This document shows positions 18,499 through 29,688 of a stretch of 36,804 nucleotides of DNA, piece by piece (within the stretch, counting starts at the first letter, position 1; the number at the start of each line of letters is the position of its first letter). Position numbers and translations under genes: made by a program. The notes beneath the pieces are model-generated. The model saw nothing but the letters and a program-made list of their open reading frames with translations. It was not told where the DNA came from and did not search any database. Location of the stretch: contig SLSQ01000061.1 of assembly GCA_007130355.1 (NCBI GenBank), forward strand, positions 1 through 36,804, given 5' to 3'. This DNA comes from Trueperaceae bacterium (lineage in GTDB: Bacteria; Deinococcota; Deinococci; Deinococcales; Trueperaceae).

Positions 18499-18524
18499 GG
18501 AACGGTCGTGCGGAACGGTCATGC
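18499..18524. repeat. 13-bp tandem direct repeat in divergent intergenic region
   Basis: GGAACGGTCGTGC / GGAACGGTCATGC, 12/13 identical. Confidence 0.6.
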
Positions 18525-18543
18525 GGTCGGCCTCCGGGTGCGC

Positions 18544-18561
18544 TCGTGCCGTCCGGCACGA
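18544..18561. promoter_or_regulatory. 18-bp dyad, operator-like
   Basis: TCGTGCCG-TC-CGGCACGA between the antiporter and fhs start codons. Confidence 0.4.
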
Positions 18562-18628
18562 CCGGTGGAAACGGTACCAAGCGGCGCGGCCGGGACGTTC
18601 CGCTCCTGCACCGAACGCGTCCTCGTCC

Positions 18629-18634
18629 TACGCT
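18629..18634 (+). promoter_or_regulatory. Putative leaderless -10 box of fhs
   Basis: TACGCT then 6 nt then ATG at 18641. Confidence 0.5.
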
Positions 18635-18640
18635 CGAGGC

Positions 18641-20311
18641 ATGACCCGAGTCCAACTGCGCCCCATCGACGACGTCGCCCGCGAGCTCGAGCTGCCCGAA
18701 GCGGCGCGGATCCCGGTCGGCCGCGACGTCCGCAAGATCGACCTTCGCCACGTCCGCGCCGCACCGGGCGCCGGGACCCGGCCCCGCGGCCGCCTGGTGC
18801 TGGTGAGCGCCATCGCGCCGACGGCGGCGGGCGAGGGGAAGACGACCGTGACGGTCGGTCTGACCGACGGCCTGCGCCGCATCGGCGTGCGTGCGGCCGC
18901 CTGCCTACGGGAGCCGTCGCTCGGTCCGGTGTTCGGCATGAAGGGCGGCGGCACCGGGGGCGGCCGCGCCCAGGTCGAACCGGCGGAACGGATCAACCTG
19001 CACTTCACCGGCGACCTGCACGCGATCGGAGCGGCGCACGACCTGCTCGCCGCGATGATCGACGCCGACCTGCACTTCGGCGGCGCCTCCGGGCTGCGCC
19101 CCGACACGGTCACCTGGCCGCGGGTGCTCGACGTGAACGACCGGGCGCTGCGCTCGGTGATCGTGGCGGCGGGACGCCCGACCGAACGACGCACGCGCTT
19201 CGACATCACCGCCGCCAGCGAGGTGATGGCGATCCTGGCGCTGGCGCGCTCGCACGAGGACCTGCGGGCCCGGCTGGCCCGGATCGTGGTCGGGACCCGC
19301 GCCGACGGCGGCGAGGTCACGGCCGCGGACCTCGAGGCGACCGACGCGATGCTCGCCCTGCTGCAGGAGGCGCTGCACCCGAACCTGGCCCAGACGCGGG
19401 ACGGCTCGCCCGCCTTCGTGCACGCCGGCCCGTTCGCGAACATCGCGCACGGCTGTTCGAGCGTGGTGGCGACCGAATTGGCGCTCGACCACGCCGACGT
19501 GGTGCTGACCGAGGCGGGCTTCGGGTTCGACCTCGGTGGCGAGAAGTTCCTCGACCTCAAGGCCCGTGGCGCCGGACTGGCCCCGGAGGCGGTCGTCCTG
19601 GTGGCCACCGTCCGGGCCCTGAAGGCGCACGGTTCCGGCGACCTGGAGCGCGGCCTGCGGCACCTCGACCGACAGCTCGCCAACGTCGAGGCGTTCGGGC
19701 TGCCCGTCGTGGTGGCGCTGAACGTCTTCGACGACGACGTCGCCGCCGACCTGCGAACGGTCGAGGCGCACGCGGCCGCGCGCAGCGTTCCGAGCGCCCG
19801 GGTGACGGCGTTCCGGGACGGCGGTCCGGGCGGCGTGGCGGCGGCGCGTGCGCTCGTCGAGCTGCTCGACGCCCGGCCGGGACCCGCGCCCGAGCTGGAC
19901 CACCCGTACGCGCTCGAGGACGATCTCGAGACCAAGGTCCGCAAACTGGCGCGACGGGTGTACGGCGCCCGCGACGCGACGCTGAGCGAGCGGGCCGCGC
20001 GGCAGGCGGCCGCGCTCGCGGGAGCCGGGCACGGCCGCCTGCCGATCTGCATGGCGAAGACGCCGCTCTCGTTCGGACCGAGCCCGAAGGACGGCGGGTT
20101 GGCGGAGGGGTTCGACCTGCCGATCCGTTCGCTCAGGCTCGCGGCGGGCGCCGGGTTCGTCGTCGCGATGGCGGGGGCGGTGGTGGCCATGCCGGGTCTG
20201 CCGCGCGAGCCGGCGGCCAAGCGGGTTCGGGTGCGGCCGGACGGCACGGTGACCGGTCTGATGCAGGGCGAGGCGGAGGAACCGGAACCGGTGGCGGGCC
20301 ACGACGCCTGA
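18641..20311 (+). CDS. fhs: Formate--tetrahydrofolate ligase
   Basis: ORF 18521..20311 trimmed to ATG 18641; SAIAPTAAGEGKTTVTVGL, REPSLGPVFGMKGGGTGGGRAQV, HFTGDLHAIGAAHDLL, CMAKTPLSFG. Confidence 0.97.
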   Translation: MTRVQLRPIDDVARELELPEAARIPVGRDVRKIDLRHVRAAPGAGTRPRGRLVLVSAIAPTAAGEGKTTVTVGLTDGLRRIGVRAAACLREPSLGPVFGMKGGGTGGGRAQVEPAERINLHFTGDLHAIGAAHDLLAAMIDADLHFGGASGLRPDTVTWPRVLDVNDRALRSVIVAAGRPTERRTRFDITAASEVMAILALARSHEDLRARLARIVVGTRADGGEVTAADLEATDAMLALLQEALHPNLAQTRDGSPAFVHAGPFANIAHGCSSVVATELALDHADVVLTEAGFGFDLGGEKFLDLKARGAGLAPEAVVLVATVRALKAHGSGDLERGLRHLDRQLANVEAFGLPVVVALNVFDDDVAADLRTVEAHAAARSVPSARVTAFRDGGPGGVAAARALVELLDARPGPAPELDHPYALEDDLETKVRKLARRVYGARDATLSERAARQAAALAGAGHGRLPICMAKTPLSFGPSPKDGGLAEGFDLPIRSLRLAAGAGFVVAMAGAVVAMPGLPREPAAKRVRVRPDGTVTGLMQGEAEEPEPVAGHDA

Positions 20312-21631: not shown

Positions 21632-22627
21632 TCAGCGCCCGGCGTCCCAGACGTCGACGGTGTCGACCAACGTCGTGAAGGTGTCCCACCCGGCGCCGGT
21701 CGCGCCCCCGATCACGTACCAGGCGTCGCCCGTTCCGGCCGACGCGATCCCGTGCCGCGCCGTCGGCAACGGCTCCGTCCGCGTCCAGGCGTCCCGCGCC
21801 GGGTCGAACGCTTCGTGGTCGGCGAAGGTCCGCGCCGAGTCGAGCGCCTCGCCTCCGACGACGTGGACACGGCCGCCCACCGCTCCGGCCGTGTGCCCGC
21901 TGCGCGGGGTCGGCAGGGGCGGTCGCGTCGTCCAAGCGTCGGCGTCGGGATCGTACGCCTCGTGCGTTCCGAGGTTGCCACGGCCGGGCCAACGCCCGCC
22001 GACCACGTGCACCCTCCCGTCCACGACCGTCGCGGCGAGGTGCTCGCGGGCGGTGGGCAGCGGCGCGGCCGGCTCGAGCCAGGCGCCGGCCGCCACGTCG
22101 AGGCGCCACACCTCCTGCGGCGCGGCGCCGACGCCGCCGATCACGTACACCACGTCGTCGACGGCGACGGTCACGTGCGCCGCCCGCGGTCCGGGCAGGT
22201 CCGGCAGGCGTGCCCAGGCGCCGGCGACCGGATCGAACGCCCAGACCGCGGCGTGGTCGGTGCGGAACTCGAGGTCGCGGTACCCGCCCGTGACCACGAC
22301 CCGTCCCGCAGCGGCGGCGACGCCGGCGTGGTGGACCGGTTCCGGCAGCGGCGGGAGCGCCGTCCAGCGGCCGGTCGCGACGTCGAACGCCTCGAACGCC
22401 GCGACGGTGCCGTCCGGACCCAACCCGCCCGGAACGTAGACGAAGCCGTCCAGGGCGGCGGCGTGCATCTCGGAGCGGGGCGTCGGCAGCGACGCCGCGC
22501 TCCGCCACGGGCCGGCGGCGTCTTCCTGACCGACCCCCGTGCCCGCGACGGCCAGGACCGCCAGGGAGGCGCCGAGGAGGAGGTCGAACGCGCGTCGGCG
22601 GACGGATACGGCTCGGGTCCGGTTCAT
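21632..22627 (-). CDS. Secreted Kelch-repeat protein
   Basis: 331 aa; repeating ...VYVIGGVG...W.RLDVAAGAW...PLPTAREHLAA.V.DGRVHVVGG blades. Confidence 0.93.
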   Translation of the reverse strand: MNRTRAVSVRRRAFDLLLGASLAVLAVAGTGVGQEDAAGPWRSAASLPTPRSEMHAAALDGFVYVPGGLGPDGTVAAFEAFDVATGRWTALPPLPEPVHHAGVAAAAGRVVVTGGYRDLEFRTDHAAVWAFDPVAGAWARLPDLPGPRAAHVTVAVDDVVYVIGGVGAAPQEVWRLDVAAGAWLEPAAPLPTAREHLAATVVDGRVHVVGGRWPGRGNLGTHEAYDPDADAWTTRPPLPTPRSGHTAGAVGGRVHVVGGEALDSARTFADHEAFDPARDAWTRTEPLPTARHGIASAGTGDAWYVIGGATGAGWDTFTTLVDTVDVWDAGR

Positions 22628-22920
22628 GGTGCGACGGTGGCACGTCCGCCCGTGCGGCGGATGAGGGGTCGGGCGCGCGGAGGGCCGGCGCGCACCCCCC
22701 GGTCGGTCCCCGGCGTCGCCCGGACCTCGAAACCGGAGTCAGGTCGCGAACCCGTGCCGCGTCCTCGTCGTACGATGACGGCCAGGGGACGCCGAACCGT
22801 CCGTGAGGCACCGGCGGAACGGCGAGGTACGACACTGATACACGCTACGAAGCGCCGGCGTCGAGCCGGCACGGGCCGATCGAACGCCCGAACGGCCCCG
22901 AAGCGAACGGGCTGCCGCAG

Positions 22921-23724
22921 GTGACGTCGCGCCGGCGACGTTTCGGCGCCGTCGCGGCGATCGTCGCGACGGTCGTGGTGCTGGTCTGGAGCCTCGTGGC
23001 GGGCATCGGGGCGCCGCCCGCCACCGCCGACGACGCCGCGCCGATCCGGATCGCGTGGCCGACCGATGCCGCCGACGCCCTGCTCTGGATCGCGCTGGAC
23101 GACGACGCGTTCCGCGACGCGGGGGCGCGGGTCGAAGCGGTGGCGCACGATCGCGACGACGACGGGACCCGCCGCCTCCTGGACGACCTCCGCGCCGGAA
23201 CGATCGATCTCGCCGCCGTCGCCCTGCACGACGTCGCCGCCGAGTTCGCGTCCCGCGACGGCCGGGTCGCGGCGGACGATCCCACGATCCTCGCCGCGAT
23301 CGCGCACGTCGCGGAGGCCGCCCCGGCCACCGCCCTCGCGCATCGGGTCGTCGTCGCCCGCCGGAGCGACGTCGCGCGCGATCCCGACCGCTACGCCCGG
23401 GTGCTGACCGCGCTCGCCGCGACGCTCGACGCGACGGGGGGCGGGACGGAGCCCCTTCCGGACGGCTTCGCCCGGTCGTCCGGCGTCGCGCCCGACGTCG
23501 CCGCGGACCGGTACCGGGCGACCACCCTGGACCTGAGCCTGGAGTGGAACGTCCTCGCCGCGTTCCTCGCCCTGGGCGATCGGTTCCGTGCGGAGGGCCG
23601 GGCGGCCTGGCCGCCCGACGGGCCGGTCCTCGGCGCCTTCGATCCGCGTCCCCTCGAACGGGCCGCCTCGCCGGCTCCGACCTTTCCCTGGCTCGCGCCC
23701 GGCTCCGGCGCGGGGGCGCCGTGA
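22921..23724 (+). CDS. Periplasmic solute-binding-like protein (NMT1/THI5-type)
   Basis: 267 aa; N-terminal membrane/signal segment; PIRIAWPTDAADALLWIALDDDAFRDAGARVEAVAHD... LRAGTIDLAAVALHDV resembles nitrate/thiamine-type SBPs; stop overlaps next start (GTGA). Confidence 0.7.
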   Translation: MTSRRRRFGAVAAIVATVVVLVWSLVAGIGAPPATADDAAPIRIAWPTDAADALLWIALDDDAFRDAGARVEAVAHDRDDDGTRRLLDDLRAGTIDLAAVALHDVAAEFASRDGRVAADDPTILAAIAHVAEAAPATALAHRVVVARRSDVARDPDRYARVLTALAATLDATGGGTEPLPDGFARSSGVAPDVAADRYRATTLDLSLEWNVLAAFLALGDRFRAEGRAAWPPDGPVLGAFDPRPLERAASPAPTFPWLAPGSGAGAP

Positions 23725-26555
23725 CCGGCCCGCGCAGCCTGGTGCGGTCATCGCGCGTCGCGATCGCGTTCGGAGCCGTCGGGGCGGTCACGATCGCGAT
23801 CCTGGCGCTGATCCTGATCACGGACATGCGCGGCCAGCACGAGCGCGCGCACGACCTGATCGCGCTGCAGCTCGACCTCGACGCCTTCTCCGTGTCCGCC
23901 GACGGCATCGTCGCGACGCCGTACGTCGCCGACGTCGACGCCGCCTTCCGCGCGGAGGCCGAGGACCTCCAGGTCCGCCTCGACGCGCTCGCCGGACCTC
24001 GGCCCGACCTGGCCCGAGCGAGCGCGACCCTCGGGCGGATGCTCGACCTGCTCGACCGCGTCCGCGCGTCCGCCACCGAGGCGGCGCCGGGTGCGGTTCA
24101 CGCGATGGCGACGTACGGTTCGGTCCTCGATTCGGCGATCGGACGCGCGATCGACGCCAACGAAGCCACGCACGCCGCCCGCTCCCTCGCGGTGATGGCG
24201 ACGTTCGCCCTGGCCTCGCTCGGGTTCGCGCTCCTCGCCATCGGCGGGTTCCGGCTCCTCCATCGCCGGGTCGCCCTGCCGGTCCGAGACCTCACCCACG
24301 TCGCCGAACGGATCGCCGCCGGCGACGACGCCGCCCGTGCCGGAACCGCCGGCCGGGACGAGCTCGCGCGCCTCGGGGCGGCGCTCGACGCGATGCTCGA
24401 CCGGCAGCGCGAACTGAATCGATTGACCGCGCGGCAGCGTGCCCAGCTCGAGACCCACGCCCGGCAGTTGGCGGAGGCGCAACGGATCGCCCAGGTCGGG
24501 AGCTGGGAACGCAGTCTGGAGGAGGACGCCGAACCGATCTGGTCGGCCGAGACCTACCGGATCCTCGACATGGACCCGGACGCCGGGCCGTTGACGGTCG
24601 CGCCGTTCCTCGACCGCGTCCGCGAGGAGGAACGCGAGCGACTGCGCGAAACGCGCGAACGCGGCATCGCCAGCGGCGACGGGTACGACGTCGAGGTGCG
24701 CATCCGCACCCGCGACGGGGGCGAGCGTCCCGTCCGCCTCAAGACGATCGTGCGGACCGACGCCGACGGTCGTCCCATCGGCCTGATCGGCACGGTGCAC
24801 GATCTGACCCGCCAGAAGGAGGAGGAACGCCTGCGGTCGGCGCTGTTGAACGCCCTTCCGGCGCAGGTCGCGTTGGTCGACGCCGACGGGTCGATCGTGC
24901 ACGTGAACGACCGCTGGCGCGCCTTCGCCGAGGAGAACGGAGGCGAACCCGCGCGCAGCGGGCCGGGCACGAACTACCTGACGATCTGCGAAGGCGCCGT
25001 CGGCGAGCACGCCGACGAGGCGCCGAACGTCGCGGACGGACTGCGCGCGGTCCTCTCCGGCGCGCGCGAGCGGTTCCTGCTCGAGTACCCGTGCCACGCG
25101 CCCGATCGGTTCCGCTGGTTCCGCGCCATGGTCGAACCGATGCCGGTCCCGGCCGACGGCGGGCTCCGGACCGGTGCGGTGGTGATGCACGTCGACGTGA
25201 CCGACCGGAAGCTGGCGGAGGAACGGCTGCACCGGCTGGCGTTCCACGACCGCCTCACCGACCTGGCGTCCCGGCACGGGTTCACGCGCCAGTTGGTCGA
25301 CCGGCTCGAGGACGGCTGGTCGGAGCACGGTGCCGTGGTACTGGCCGACGTCGAGAACCTGCGCGGCATCAACGACACGCACGGGTTCGCCAGCGGCGAC
25401 GCGCTGCTGGTCGCGGTCGGCCGGCGCCTCCGCGAGGCGATCGGGCCCGACGGGCTGGCGGCCCGGACCGGCGGCGACCAGTTCGCCGTGTGGGCGATCG
25501 ATCCACACGGCGACCTGCCGCAACGCCTGGTGGCGGTGTTCGACCGTCCGTTCCGGATCGGCGCGCGGCAGATCGAGGCGAGCGCCCGCTTCGGTCGGGC
25601 GCGGACCGGCGAGCACCGGCGCTCGGTCGAAACGCTGCTCCGTGAGGCGGAGGTCGCGCTCTACCACGCGCGGACCGAGGTGAAGGCCGGCTGGGTCGAC
25701 TACGACGTCGAGATGGACCGCGCCGCGCGCGAGCGGATCCGCACCACCGAGGAGCTGAGGACGGCGCTCCGCGAGGGGCAGTTCCGCCTCCACTTCCAGC
25801 CTCAGGTCGACCTGAGCAGCGGCGCGATCGAGGCGGGCGAAGCGTTGATCCGCTGGCGCCACCCCACGCGCGGCCTGCTCTCGCCCGGCGCGTTCATCGA
25901 GATCGCCGAACGGAGCGGCCTGATCGGCGCGATCGGCGACTGGGTGATCTACGAGGCGTGCCGAGCGCTGCGGTCGTGGAGCGACGCCGGCCACGGGCCG
26001 GCCCGAATCGCGGTGAACGTCTCGATCGAGCAGTTCGCCTCCGGCACCTTCCCGGCCACGGTGCGCGAGGCGCTCGACCGGCACGGGGTCGACCCGCGGG
26101 CGCTGACGCTCGAGATCACCGAAAGCGTCTTCGAGCGCGAGTCGCCCGAACTGTGGCGCGACGTGCGCAGTCTGCACGCCATGGGCGTGCGCCTGTCGCT
26201 CGACGACTTCGGGACCGGGTTCTCGTCCCTGATGTACCTGAAGAAGTACCCGTTCGACGAGATCAAGATCGATCGGGCGTTCGTACGGGACCTGGCGCAC
26301 GACCGCTACAGCCGCAAGCTGGTCGGTACGATCCTGGCCGTCGGTGAGGCGATCGGCGCCAGCGTCCTGGCGGAAGGGATCGAGACCGACACGCAGCGCG
26401 ACGCTCTGCTCGAGCTCGGCTGCCGCTTCGGTCAGGGGTTCCGCTTCAGCGTGCCGCTGGCCGAAGAGGACTTCCGCTGGCTGCTGCGGCAGAACCGGCC
26501 GCTGCCCCTGCACGAGGCATCCGTCGCGACCGACCCTGGAGGCGAGAACGCATGA
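23721..26555 (+). CDS. Membrane sensor with HAMP, PAS domains, degenerate GGDEF (GGDQF) and EAL domain
   Basis: 944 aa from GTG 23721; TM-periplasmic-TM-HAMP; PAS regions; RTGGDQF at 25470-25484; EAL features QPQVDL, EALIRWRHP, LEITES, LDDFGTGFSSL, EIKIDRAFV, AEGIET. Confidence 0.93.
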   Translation: MTGPRSLVRSSRVAIAFGAVGAVTIAILALILITDMRGQHERAHDLIALQLDLDAFSVSADGIVATPYVADVDAAFRAEAEDLQVRLDALAGPRPDLARASATLGRMLDLLDRVRASATEAAPGAVHAMATYGSVLDSAIGRAIDANEATHAARSLAVMATFALASLGFALLAIGGFRLLHRRVALPVRDLTHVAERIAAGDDAARAGTAGRDELARLGAALDAMLDRQRELNRLTARQRAQLETHARQLAEAQRIAQVGSWERSLEEDAEPIWSAETYRILDMDPDAGPLTVAPFLDRVREEERERLRETRERGIASGDGYDVEVRIRTRDGGERPVRLKTIVRTDADGRPIGLIGTVHDLTRQKEEERLRSALLNALPAQVALVDADGSIVHVNDRWRAFAEENGGEPARSGPGTNYLTICEGAVGEHADEAPNVADGLRAVLSGARERFLLEYPCHAPDRFRWFRAMVEPMPVPADGGLRTGAVVMHVDVTDRKLAEERLHRLAFHDRLTDLASRHGFTRQLVDRLEDGWSEHGAVVLADVENLRGINDTHGFASGDALLVAVGRRLREAIGPDGLAARTGGDQFAVWAIDPHGDLPQRLVAVFDRPFRIGARQIEASARFGRARTGEHRRSVETLLREAEVALYHARTEVKAGWVDYDVEMDRAARERIRTTEELRTALREGQFRLHFQPQVDLSSGAIEAGEALIRWRHPTRGLLSPGAFIEIAERSGLIGAIGDWVIYEACRALRSWSDAGHGPARIAVNVSIEQFASGTFPATVREALDRHGVDPRALTLEITESVFERESPELWRDVRSLHAMGVRLSLDDFGTGFSSLMYLKKYPFDEIKIDRAFVRDLAHDRYSRKLVGTILAVGEAIGASVLAEGIETDTQRDALLELGCRFGQGFRFSVPLAEEDFRWLLRQNRPLPLHEASVATDPGGENA

Positions 26556-28300
26556 CGACGACCGCGATACGAAAGCGACCGACCGGCATCGCCGGTCTGG
26601 ACGCCGCCTGCCACGGCGGCCTACCGGCGAACGGCGCGACCCTGATCACCGGCACGCCGGGCACCGGCAAGACCGTCATGGCCCTGCAGATCGTCGCGAA
26701 CGCCGTGCGCGACGGGGGCGCGGGGATCGTGGTGACGTTCGAAGAGTCGCCGGACCGGATGCTGAGGCACGTCGCGAGCTTCGAGTTCGCCGAGCACCTG
26801 CACGATCCGGACCGGGTGCTCGCGATCGACGCCCGCCCGCGCGACGCGACGACGGTCGGCGGAACCTTCGACCTCGAGGGTCTGCTCGCCGTCCTCTCCG
26901 AGAGGCGCGAACGGATGGACGCCGGTTGGATCGTGCTCGACGGACTCGACCAGCTCCTGGTCCTCCACGGCGACCGTCGCCAGGTCCTCGCGCACCTGAA
27001 GCGGCTGGACGCCTGGGCCGAACGGCACGACGCCTCGCTGCTGATCACCGCCAAGCGGGAGCCGGAGGACCCCGAGGTCGCCGCCGCGCTGCGGGGCACG
27101 GAACACCTGCTGTCGACCCTGCTGACGGTCGTCGGAACGCTGGTCGAACGGCGCCTCAACCGACGCTTCCGGGTGGTGAAGTACCGCGGCAGCGCCCACG
27201 TCGCCGACGAGCTCCCGATGATGCTGACCGGCGAGGGCGTGGTCCTGCCGTACGGCCTCGCCGACCCGGCCGCGACCGTCGACGTCGCCGACCGGGCGTC
27301 GCTCCCGACCGTGTCGGACGATCGGGTCGGGACCGGAGTGCCGCAGCTCGACGACGTGCTCGGCGGAGGACCGTACCGGGGGACCACCACGCTGATCTCG
27401 GGCGCGCCGGGCACGTCCAAGACCACCCTGGCGGCGTCGTTCGCCGCGGCCGCCGCGGCGCGCGGCGAGCGGGCCCTCTACGTCAGTTTCGACGAGCGGG
27501 CCACCGGCGTGATCCGCAACGCCGCCTCGGTCGGCATCGACCTGGACGCGCCCATCCGAAACGGTCGGCTGCGCGTGCGGAGCCGAACGGCCTGGTCCGG
27601 TCTGGTCGAGGAGCACTTCCTCGCGATCGCGCACGAGCTCTCGGAGTTCGCCCCGTCGTTGCTGGTGATCGACCCCGTATCGGCACTGCTCAAGGCGGCC
27701 AGCGCGGAGAGCGCCTACCTGTCGGTCGAACGGCTGCTCGCGATCGCCCGGGCGCGCGGCGTGACCACCGTCCTCACCTCCCTCGGCGCGAACGAGAACC
27801 CCGAAGTCGAATCGACCCTCAGCCACACCTCCACGCTCGCGGACACCTGGATCTCGCTCGCGTACCGGGTGCAGGGCGGCGAACGGAACCGAGCCCTCTC
27901 CGTGGTCAAGTCGCGCGGCACGGCGCACTCGAACCAGGTCCGCGAGCTGATCCTTTCCGACCGCGGCATCGAGCTGACCGACGTCTACCCGTTCGGCAGC
28001 GAGGTCCTGTTCGGCACCGCCCGGCTTCAGAAAGTGCGGGAGCAGGAGGCGGCGTCGCGGGTCGAAACGGCGGCCCACGAGCGACGGCGCTCCGAACTCG
28101 AGGAGCGCCTCGACCACGCCGCCGCGCGCCGGGCGGAGGCGCAGCGCGAGGAGGATCGGATCCGGGCCGCGCTCGAGCGGGAGCGGACCGACGCGCGTGC
28201 GGAGGAACGGGACCGGGGCGCCCACGCGACGCGGGTGCACGCTCGGCGTGCGCCGGACGGTGGGCGACGCCGCAGCGACGGCGAGGGGGCGGACCGGTGA
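26552..28300 (+). CDS. kaiC: KaiC-type double-domain RecA-like ATPase
   Basis: 582 aa; start overlaps EAL gene stop. CI Walker A GTPGTGKT (26651-26674), VTFEESP; CII GAPGTSKT (27401-27424), SFDER, STLSHTSTLADT matching the KaiC phosphosite segment. Confidence 0.93.
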   Translation: MTTTAIRKRPTGIAGLDAACHGGLPANGATLITGTPGTGKTVMALQIVANAVRDGGAGIVVTFEESPDRMLRHVASFEFAEHLHDPDRVLAIDARPRDATTVGGTFDLEGLLAVLSERRERMDAGWIVLDGLDQLLVLHGDRRQVLAHLKRLDAWAERHDASLLITAKREPEDPEVAAALRGTEHLLSTLLTVVGTLVERRLNRRFRVVKYRGSAHVADELPMMLTGEGVVLPYGLADPAATVDVADRASLPTVSDDRVGTGVPQLDDVLGGGPYRGTTTLISGAPGTSKTTLAASFAAAAAARGERALYVSFDERATGVIRNAASVGIDLDAPIRNGRLRVRSRTAWSGLVEEHFLAIAHELSEFAPSLLVIDPVSALLKAASAESAYLSVERLLAIARARGVTTVLTSLGANENPEVESTLSHTSTLADTWISLAYRVQGGERNRALSVVKSRGTAHSNQVRELILSDRGIELTDVYPFGSEVLFGTARLQKVREQEAASRVETAAHERRRSELEERLDHAAARRAEAQREEDRIRAALERERTDARAEERDRGAHATRVHARRAPDGGRRRSDGEGADR

Positions 28301-28620
28301 GCGGGCCGACGCCGACCCCGGATCGTGGCCTCCGCCTGGTGCTGCTCGCCACCGGCGACGCGCCCCGCTCGGTCCGGGCGCGGGGGCGGCTCGTCGAAGC
28401 GCTCGAGCGGGCGGACCTCGAAGGCGTCGAGCGCGAGGAGGTCGACCTGACGCTCGATCCGGCGCCGGCGGTGCGCTACCGCGTGTTCGCGACCCCCGCC
28501 CTGCTCTGGGTCCGGGACGACGGCGACGACCCGGTCGCGGCGGTGCTGTACGGCGATCTCGGCGACGAGGAGGCGTTGCTCCGCTTCCTGAGCGACGGCC
28601 GGCCGGCGCCGGTACCCTGA
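28297..28620 (+). CDS. kaiB: KaiB-like thioredoxin-fold protein
   Basis: Start overlaps kaiC stop (GTGA); RLVLLATGDAPRSVRARGRLVEALERADLEGVEREEVDLTLDPAPAVRYRVFATPALLWV...YGDLGDEEALLRFL matches the KaiB pattern (V.G..P.S.RA...L......V.DV...P........ATP.L.......GDL). Confidence 0.88.
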   Translation: MSGPTPTPDRGLRLVLLATGDAPRSVRARGRLVEALERADLEGVEREEVDLTLDPAPAVRYRVFATPALLWVRDDGDDPVAAVLYGDLGDEEALLRFLSDGRPAPVP

Positions 28621-28671
28621 CGGCACCCGGCGATCCTCCGTTCCGATCCGCCCCGCCCGAAGGGAGTCCCC

Positions 28672-29688
28672 ATGTCCGATCCGATCCGTTTCGGCGTCCT
28701 CTCGACCGCGAACATCGCCCGCGCCGCGGTCGCGCCCGCGATCCGCGCCGCCGACGGCGCCCGGCTCGCTGCCGTCGGTTCCCGCGACGAGTCCCGCGCG
28801 CTCGCCTTCGCCGACCGGATCGGCGCGCCCCGGGCGCACGGGACGTACGAGGCGCTCCTGGACGATCCGGAGGTCGACGCGATCTACCTGGCGCTCCCGA
28901 ACGCGCTGCACGAGTCGTGGACGATCCGCGCGCTCGAGGCGGGCAAGCACGTGCTCTGCGAGAAGCCGCTCGCTCCGACCGCCGCCGCCTGCGCCCGCAT
29001 GGGCGACGCCGCCGAGCGCGCCGACCGAGTGCTGGCCGAAGCGTTCATGTACCGGCACCACCCGCGCCTGCTGGCCGCGGCCGAGGCGGTCCGGTCCGGC
29101 CGGATCGGACGGCCGACGTTCGTGACGACGACGTTCACCTTCGCCGTCACCGATCCCGCGAACATCCGGCTGTCGCGCGAGCTGGCGGGCGGGGCGTTGC
29201 TCGACGTCGGTTGCTACACGGTCGACGTGGTGCTGCGGCTGCTGGGCGAGGACCCGGACGCGGTGACGGCGTACGCACGCTTCGACGGGGACGACCCGCG
29301 GGCGGGCGTCGACCTCGAGACGAGCGCCTCGCTGCGCTTCCCGTCCGGCGCCACCGCATCGGCCACCTCGGCGCTGACCCTGCCGCGCCGCGAGTCGGTC
29401 GAGGTCCGCGGCACGGAGGGGACCCTCCGCTTCGAGAAGTCGTTCCTGCCCGGTCCCGACGCGACGGAGACGACCTTCGTCGCGCCCGACGGCGTCGAGA
29501 CGCTCGAGCGGCATCCCGGCGAGGACCCGTACCGGGCGATGGTCGAGGCGTTCGTGCGGCGCGTGCGGGGCGAGCCGCGGGCGACCGATCCGGTAGCGGA
29601 CGCACGGACGGCCGCACGGACCGTGCGGGTGCTCGAAGCGGCGGCGGCGTCGGCGCGGGGCGGCGGGGCGGTCTTCGCGCTGGATTGA
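28672..29688 (+). CDS. Gfo/Idh/MocA family oxidoreductase
   Basis: 338 aa; RFGVLSTANIARAAVAPAIR, EVDAIYLALPNALHESWTIRALEAGKHVLCEKPLA, EAFMYRHHP. Confidence 0.96.
   Translation: MSDPIRFGVLSTANIARAAVAPAIRAADGARLAAVGSRDESRALAFADRIGAPRAHGTYEALLDDPEVDAIYLALPNALHESWTIRALEAGKHVLCEKPLAPTAAACARMGDAAERADRVLAEAFMYRHHPRLLAAAEAVRSGRIGRPTFVTTTFTFAVTDPANIRLSRELAGGALLDVGCYTVDVVLRLLGEDPDAVTAYARFDGDDPRAGVDLETSASLRFPSGATASATSALTLPRRESVEVRGTEGTLRFEKSFLPGPDATETTFVAPDGVETLERHPGEDPYRAMVEAFVRRVRGEPRATDPVADARTAARTVRVLEAAAASARGGGAVFALD

Follow-up and report, generated by a model that had tools for sequence, protein, structure and literature searches.

The locus described here raises the question of whether its KaiC is of the phosphorylating, KaiB-linked kind or a bare RadA/KaiC-like ATPase, and of what such a protein would act on in a bacterium of the family Trueperaceae. 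In the window, which is the whole 36,804-nucleotide stretch of DNA that was analysed, kaiC is the third of four consecutive genes joined by 4-base overlaps (GTGA, ATGA and GTGA). The features of this run are listed below, with the evidence for each in brackets.

22921..23724, plus strand: first gene, divergent putative periplasmic binding protein with an N-terminal hydrophobic segment (phmmer to relatives; hydropathy)
23721..26555, plus strand: membrane HAMP-PAS-PAS-GGDEF-EAL protein, 944 aa (Pfam HAMP, PAS_3, PAS_4, GGDEF with 86.8 bits and EAL with 243.9 bits)
26552..28300, plus strand: kaiC, 582 aa, double-domain KaiC with a C-terminal coiled coil (PF06745 twice; PDB match; AF2 model)
26741..26746, plus strand: CI catalytic pair E64 E65, kept (clade alignment)
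27401..27424, plus strand: CII Walker A motif GAPGTSKT, with Ser for the Gly preceding the Lys
27491..27496, plus strand: CII dyad D314 E315, a natural E318D (opposite E318-E319 in S. elongatus KaiC, E302-E303 in KaiC-RS)
27815..27817, plus strand: T422 (ACC), equivalent of S. elongatus KaiC T426 (alignments)
27830..27835, plus strand: S427 (TCC, 27830-27832) and T428 (ACG, 27833-27835), equivalent of the S431/T432 pair (alignments)
28013..28246, plus strand: predicted C-terminal helix, residues 488-565, a KaiC-RS-like coiled-coil extension (AF2 secondary structure)
28297..28620, plus strand: kaiB-like gene, 107 aa, divergent KaiB (KaiB HMM; PDB match; AF2/Foldseek)

The kaiC product has two tandem PF06745 domains (26579-27244 and 27326-27979), both RecA-like and each with a Walker A motif, GTPGTGKT in the first and GAPGTSKT in the second. 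Its top PDB match by sequence is KaiC-RS (8dba, E 6e-83), which extends over residues 5-559 with the tail included. Scores against the NCBIfam models of circadian clock protein KaiC fell under the curated cut-offs, at 393.9 bits for NF006799 (cut-off 408) and 217 bits for TIGR02655 (cut-off 546.25). The AF2 model, built from an alignment of 46 chosen sequences that are a subset of all, reached a mean pLDDT of 87.4 and matched the tail-less KaiC-RS 8db3 in a VIA structure search with a Z of 41.3 over 440 residues; the S. elongatus KaiC entries, with Z about 40, tie with it within 1 Z. Full-length KaiC-RS 8dba covered residues 5-544 of the model in the same search, part of the predicted coiled-coil extension included.

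The position of this protein among its relatives was examined with a scan of genome contigs, from which the best 80 of at least 575 confirmed KaiC relatives were kept, and a tree of 90 rows made up of the scan loci, the family genomes, two plasmid loci and S. elongatus KaiC. One locus with an early stop in kaiC (L082) was left out of both tree and counts, other KaiC-like or RadA-like matches (L005, L006, L017-L038) stand outside the counts, and the KaiC start positions of L051 and L052 are guesses. The proportions given for the clades come from the best 80 of at least 575 relatives and are not population frequencies. Among the matches listed, the window KaiC falls within a clade of 65 rows (SH-aLRT 100), whose sister is a group of 20 KaiC2/KaiC-RS rows (support 98), with five KaiC1/3-like rows outside. 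The clade stays monophyletic with a support of 100 after removal of the P-loop, dyad and P-site columns. Judged from these alignments, it is a KaiC lineage sister to KaiC2 with Asp at the position of S. elongatus E318 in 64 of the 65 listed members, and it is referred to below as the Asp clade. A kaiB gene adjoins kaiC in 62 of its 65 listed loci. The Asp-clade loci have one kaiB gene; two tandem copies lie 3' of kaiC on the Pararhizobium qamdonense plasmid (L130:7665-8338) and in most KaiC2 loci.

The initial annotation had placed T422, S427 and T428 opposite T426, S431 and T432 of Synechococcus KaiC by eye, and the positions turned out to be exact. The sequence around the P-site reads E420-S-T422-L-S-H-T-S427-T428-L-A-D431. 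In the HMMER alignment with the designed KaiC 8zn5, which is ungapped here, the three residues stand opposite T, S and T of TESHIST, and in the alignments with S. elongatus KaiC they stand, again without gaps, opposite T426, S431 and T432. Against KaiC-RS, HMMER sets S427 and T428 opposite the adjacent serines S413 and S414 of the published numbering, and none of the three comparisons displaces the S-T pair from 431/432. From composition only, S or T, S and T would fall at three fixed positions with a probability of about 0.0006; the case for the phosphosites rests mainly on homology across the 65 clade members rather than on these odds. Among the matches listed, position 431 is Ser in 64 of 65 rows of the clade, position 432 is Thr in 54, Ser in 3, Ala in 4, Lys in 3 and Met in 1 (S or T in 57/65, neither in 8/65), and position 426 is Thr in 38, Ser in 23 and another residue in 4. 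By column conservation in the same listed rows, S427 is in the top 11% and T428 in the top 31%; the T422 column is average by single residue (top-residue share 0.585), though 94% S/T. As a control, six KaiC-like proteins of this family with two domains and no kaiB beside them were compared, and none of the six has S/T at 432. Two Trueperaceae proteins of this kind (L047:4841-7295 and L048:4443-6867, minus strand), followed by a GGDEF protein and without kaiB, read S-E at 431/432, as if a phosphomimetic were built in.

In the active sites the picture is mixed. The initial annotation counted the acidic pairs of both domains as retained, which holds for CI, where the columns of E64 and E65 are Glu in 65/65 and 64/65 of the listed Asp-clade rows, and not for CII, where the "DE" contains D314 as a substitution of E318; the catalytic EE is thus present in CI only. 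In S. elongatus KaiC, E318 is reported to act catalytically by activating T432 and S431, and E319 to be a Mg2+ ligand (PMC2777353). The rhythm of Synechococcus was abolished by E318A and by E318D alike; phosphoryl transfer is reported as lost for E318A, and E318D is described as arrhythmic without that statement in the available part of the paper (PMC2777353). By residue type, the change from E318 to D314 is a replacement in a conservative direction. In the listed KaiC2 rows, Glu318 is found in 19 of 20 (L128 has Val) and Glu319 in every one of the 20; the EE dyad is present in all five listed KaiC1/3-like rows. The sole listed Asp-clade row with Glu318 is L094:5968-7728 from a Latescibacterota MAG, which is also among the three without a detected kaiB neighbour. 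Other KaiC-like proteins (L147:2264-4609, minus strand, and L148:2429-4018) read TDER at the CII dyad, and Asp at 318 may have arisen again in this second, distant KaiC lineage. A literature search for KaiC with E318D, covering few subscription papers, returned the mutant study only and no account of the Asp clade.

Does CII of this clade still phosphorylate? It might instead be a pseudokinase or near-pseudokinase, a domain kept for ATP binding and hexamer formation in which S427 and T428 serve interface packing, so that the protein would work as an ATPase/KaiB-regulated adaptor of the EAL protein with no phosphorylation cycle. Such a state would fit the loss of the E318 base in 64/65 listed rows of the Asp clade, the loss of E319 in 35/65 (Glu in 30, Ser in 34, Ala in 1 among the matches listed), the replacement of the Gly before the Walker A Lys of CII by Ala or Ser in all 65 listed rows, and the reported effect of E318A in S. 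elongatus (PMC2777353). The change at 318 is, however, to Asp in all but one of the rows listed and not to random residues. Aspartate can still act as a base. Against a dead kinase also speaks the conservation of Ser at 431 and of S/T at 432 in the listed rows, when the double KaiCs without kaiB have lost S/T432 throughout. The equivalents of K294, D378, K457 and R459, which in the CII of KaiC hold the phosphates of ATP, are identical in 65/65 listed rows, and together with S431 and S/T432 they form the pattern of a CII that would still be under constraint in this clade. We therefore regard the pseudokinase as possible and rather doubtful for the window protein. The loss of E319 and the eight listed rows with neither S nor T at 432 suggest that the kinase may be disappearing in some members of the clade; the association of the two losses has a Fisher p of 0.06 with kinship ignored, and E319 was lost in a single event on the tree.

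Alternatively, the protein could be an ordinary timer of the KaiC2/KaiC-RS type that works as KaiC-RS does, the Asp and the S-T pair being neutral variation. Architecture, tail and KaiB partner are common to it and KaiC-RS, and KaiC2 is the sister clade. Membership of KaiC2 itself is ruled out by the separate sister clade, D318 and the S-T pair, the listed KaiC2 rows having S-S in 20/20 in addition to the nearly constant E318. The separation of the Asp clade holds at a support of 100 with the trait columns in or out, and E318D by itself was enough to abolish the rhythm in S. elongatus (PMC2777353), which makes neutrality decidedly unlikely. The reading as a bare RadA/KaiC-like ATPase, with S and T at these positions by chance, has the shared P-loop fold of RadA-like proteins and next to nothing else for it, being ruled out by the full-length double-domain KaiC match, the KaiB partner and a homologous P-site kept across the clade.

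The reading of a phosphorylating, KaiB-linked KaiC is well supported by the fold, the P-site, the KaiB neighbour, the predicted coiled-coil tail and the phosphate-binding residues of CII. In this respect the initial annotation was right about the type of protein, and half of its argument from catalytic residues has to be given up. It also treated the phosphosites as a surprise in the apparent absence of KaiA. No match to KaiA (PF07688) at E<=1 turned up in any of 39 family genomes, which speaks against a KaiABC oscillator, and kaiA is likely absent from the window's genome, which is 80.7% complete. However, the available parts of PMC5520375 and PMC10076222 report KaiA from Cyanobacteria only and describe KaiA-independent autophosphorylation as typical of KaiC2 and KaiC3; KaiCs without KaiA normally keep their sites, and a KaiA-free KaiC with phosphosites is already known.

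The partner of the window KaiC is encoded by the next, overlapping gene. This divergent KaiB scored 13.9 bits against Pfam KaiB PF07689, under the cut-off of 27; it matched KaiB-RS in the PDB with E 6e-4 and a KaiB HMM trained without it with E 3e-11. Its AF2 model (pLDDT 86.6) had the fold-switched KaiB structures 5jwo_B and 8fwj_M as best Foldseek matches, and the protein is predicted to be in the thioredoxin-like, KaiC-binding fold. Its identity is 40-49% to the KaiBs of four halophiles versus 24-32% to others. At the other end of the run, the product of the first gene had no Pfam match at E<=1 and is too divergent for one; it resembles the upstream ORFs of Methylohalomonas (L050:2353-3405, phmmer E 1e-10) and Halochromatium (L051:1002-2312, phmmer E 7e-5). 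These two and Thiohalocapsa L052:1270-2397 have Pfam NMT1/NMT1_2 (NMT1/THI5-like) domains, so that by way of its relatives the product appears to be an NMT1/THI5-like binding protein.

The protein between them is hydrophobic in two stretches, around residues 12-35 and 155-178. Its GGDEF signature is degenerate (GGDQF, 25470-25484), departing from the GG[DE]EF of diguanylate cyclases, and its EAL motifs are intact (EALIRW, 25839-25856; DDFGTG, 26202-26219); therefore a phosphodiesterase is the likely activity, and we regard the protein as a probable c-di-GMP phosphodiesterase. No promoter was found in a scan of 22600-28700, and the two terminator-like sites in this interval are no more than shuffled sequence gives.

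Signalling genes accompany kaiCB in much of the clade. Among the matches listed, 27 of 65 Asp-clade loci have a GGDEF/EAL gene directly beside kaiCB and 23 a histidine kinase, three loci having both; of the other listed loci one has a receiver only, nine have nothing recognised and eight too little sequence. The listed KaiC2 loci have GGDEF/EAL neighbours in 4/20 and histidine kinases in 13/20. All 24 readable sets among the 27 listed GGDEF/EAL partner sets carry an EAL (or ETL) signature, and the GGDEF motif reads exactly so in 7 of the 27. Linkage of kaiCB to histidine kinase or GGDEF/EAL genes has already been described by De Luca et al. (2011, PMC3164672), and the window's locus has the same type of neighbourhood. 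In those clusters, as far as the available part of the paper goes, the signalling gene lies downstream and the catalytic dyad has no place in the account, whereas in the window it lies upstream, overlaps kaiC and has a binding protein in front. Apart from that paper, a literature search for KaiC with GGDEF or c-di-GMP, covering few subscription papers, returned nothing on the Asp clade or the four-gene block. The histidine kinases and the loci with nothing recognised are alternatives within the clade, and the GGDEF-EAL partner of the window KaiC could be co-regulated only and not controlled by KaiBC.

The same gene order of binding protein, GGDEF/EAL, kaiC and kaiB is present in Methylohalomonas (L050), Halochromatium (L051) and Thiohalocapsa (L052). 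The closest KaiCs among the matches listed are those of Methylohalomonas (54%), Rhodovibrio, Thiohalocapsa and Halochromatium, and the order is kept in the nearest loci with enough sequence; the Rhodovibrio locus ends just upstream. In the class as a whole, matches at E <= 1e-30 occur in 8 of 111 genomes, all of the family Trueperaceae, and the four other genomes of the genus have no match beyond weak RadA-like ones. Recurrence of the block in the three halophiles points to a lateral gain by the Trueperaceae genome, and acquisition of the module from a halophilic proteobacterium seems the simplest account. DNA comparison within the genus found no kai locus in common with the four other genomes, many short matches, and 67-77% identity at the flanking formate-tetrahydrofolate ligase and oxidoreductase genes (three of four genomes each), which mildly supports the contig as genuine. 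The ligase gene (window 18521-20311), whose DNA is about 69% identical in three of the four, can serve to anchor the contig.

The same genome has, on a different contig, a second kai cluster (G000:C61 = L039:8274-10935) of kaiB, kaiC and a PAS-GGDEF gene with overlapping ends. Its KaiC has the EE dyad and T-S-T and no coiled-coil tail, and its PAS-GGDEF partner reads AGDEF and has no EAL. A kaiB-linked kaiC occurs in 6 of 39 family genomes; the cluster of this second type is present in all six, though broken or incomplete in two of them. Five of the six also have another KaiC, of the tailed types, which in one case is a fragment assigned by its 57% identity only. As a tentative and unlikely extension, the two KaiBC modules might work on opposite sides of c-di-GMP turnover, with the messenger made through the second cluster and broken down through that of the window, its level being set by energy state or time of day, and with an Asp-based phosphorylation cycle in the Asp clade at large.

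Among known systems, the KaiC-RS/KaiB-RS hourglass of Cereibacter (Rhodobacter) sphaeroides KD131 (8dba, 8fwj; PMC10076222) is the nearest: it is likewise free of KaiA with kaiC followed by kaiB, has the same CI-CII-coiled-coil architecture and the highest PDB sequence similarity, and differs in its E302 E303, S-S and downstream histidine kinase, as opposed to D-E, S-T and an upstream GGDEF-EAL gene here. KaiC-RS is reported to autophosphorylate fast without KaiA, its coiled coil holding a dodecamer and the ATP/ADP ratio and KaiB setting its state (PMC10076222). KaiC2 of Rhodopseudomonas palustris, for which phosphorylation is reported, also comes from a KaiA-free kaiC-kaiB pair and has a long C-terminus; unlike the window KaiC it has TSS, a catalytic EE and a PAS histidine kinase neighbour (PMC4794148, available part). 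S. elongatus KaiC (1u9i/2gbl) shares the T426/S431/T432 pattern and the two RecA-like domains, and the window KaiC differs from it in the Asp for E318, the extra coiled coil and a genome in which no KaiA was found.

On balance we favour, with a probability of roughly 0.58, a KaiBC module that works without KaiA, has the coiled-coil architecture of KaiC-RS and acts on a c-di-GMP phosphodiesterase. Since the window KaiC has the same parts as KaiC-RS, autophosphorylation at S427/T428 and output through the EAL protein would be expected. Two-ring KaiC hexamers would be joined as dodecamers by their C-terminal helices, and a high ATP/ADP ratio would load CII with ATP; S427 and T428 would then be phosphorylated with D314 standing in for the usual glutamate base, and KaiB would bind the post-hydrolysis CI ring and return the cycle. 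The state of KaiBC would control the co-translated membrane HAMP-PAS-PAS-GGDEF-EAL protein, a direction of signalling that we infer, and the periplasmic binding protein may also feed the latter. Because an Asp base replaces the Glu, a switch or hourglass is expected rather than a self-sustained clock.

The Trueperaceae module extends Kai to the Deinococcota, a phylum for which a literature search (Kai with Trueperaceae or Deinococcus-Thermus, few subscription papers covered) found no Kai work. It belongs to a natural, mostly KaiB-linked clade in which E318D is present in 64 of the 65 members listed with the phosphosites mostly kept, the same change that was arrhythmic when engineered (PMC2777353). 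This raises the testable question of how the exact base affects the speed and reversibility with which KaiC is phosphorylated, and of whether Asp turns an oscillator into a switch. To our knowledge, few outputs of KaiBC have been identified outside Cyanobacteria, and the run of overlapping genes that includes a probable c-di-GMP phosphodiesterase is a concrete candidate for one.
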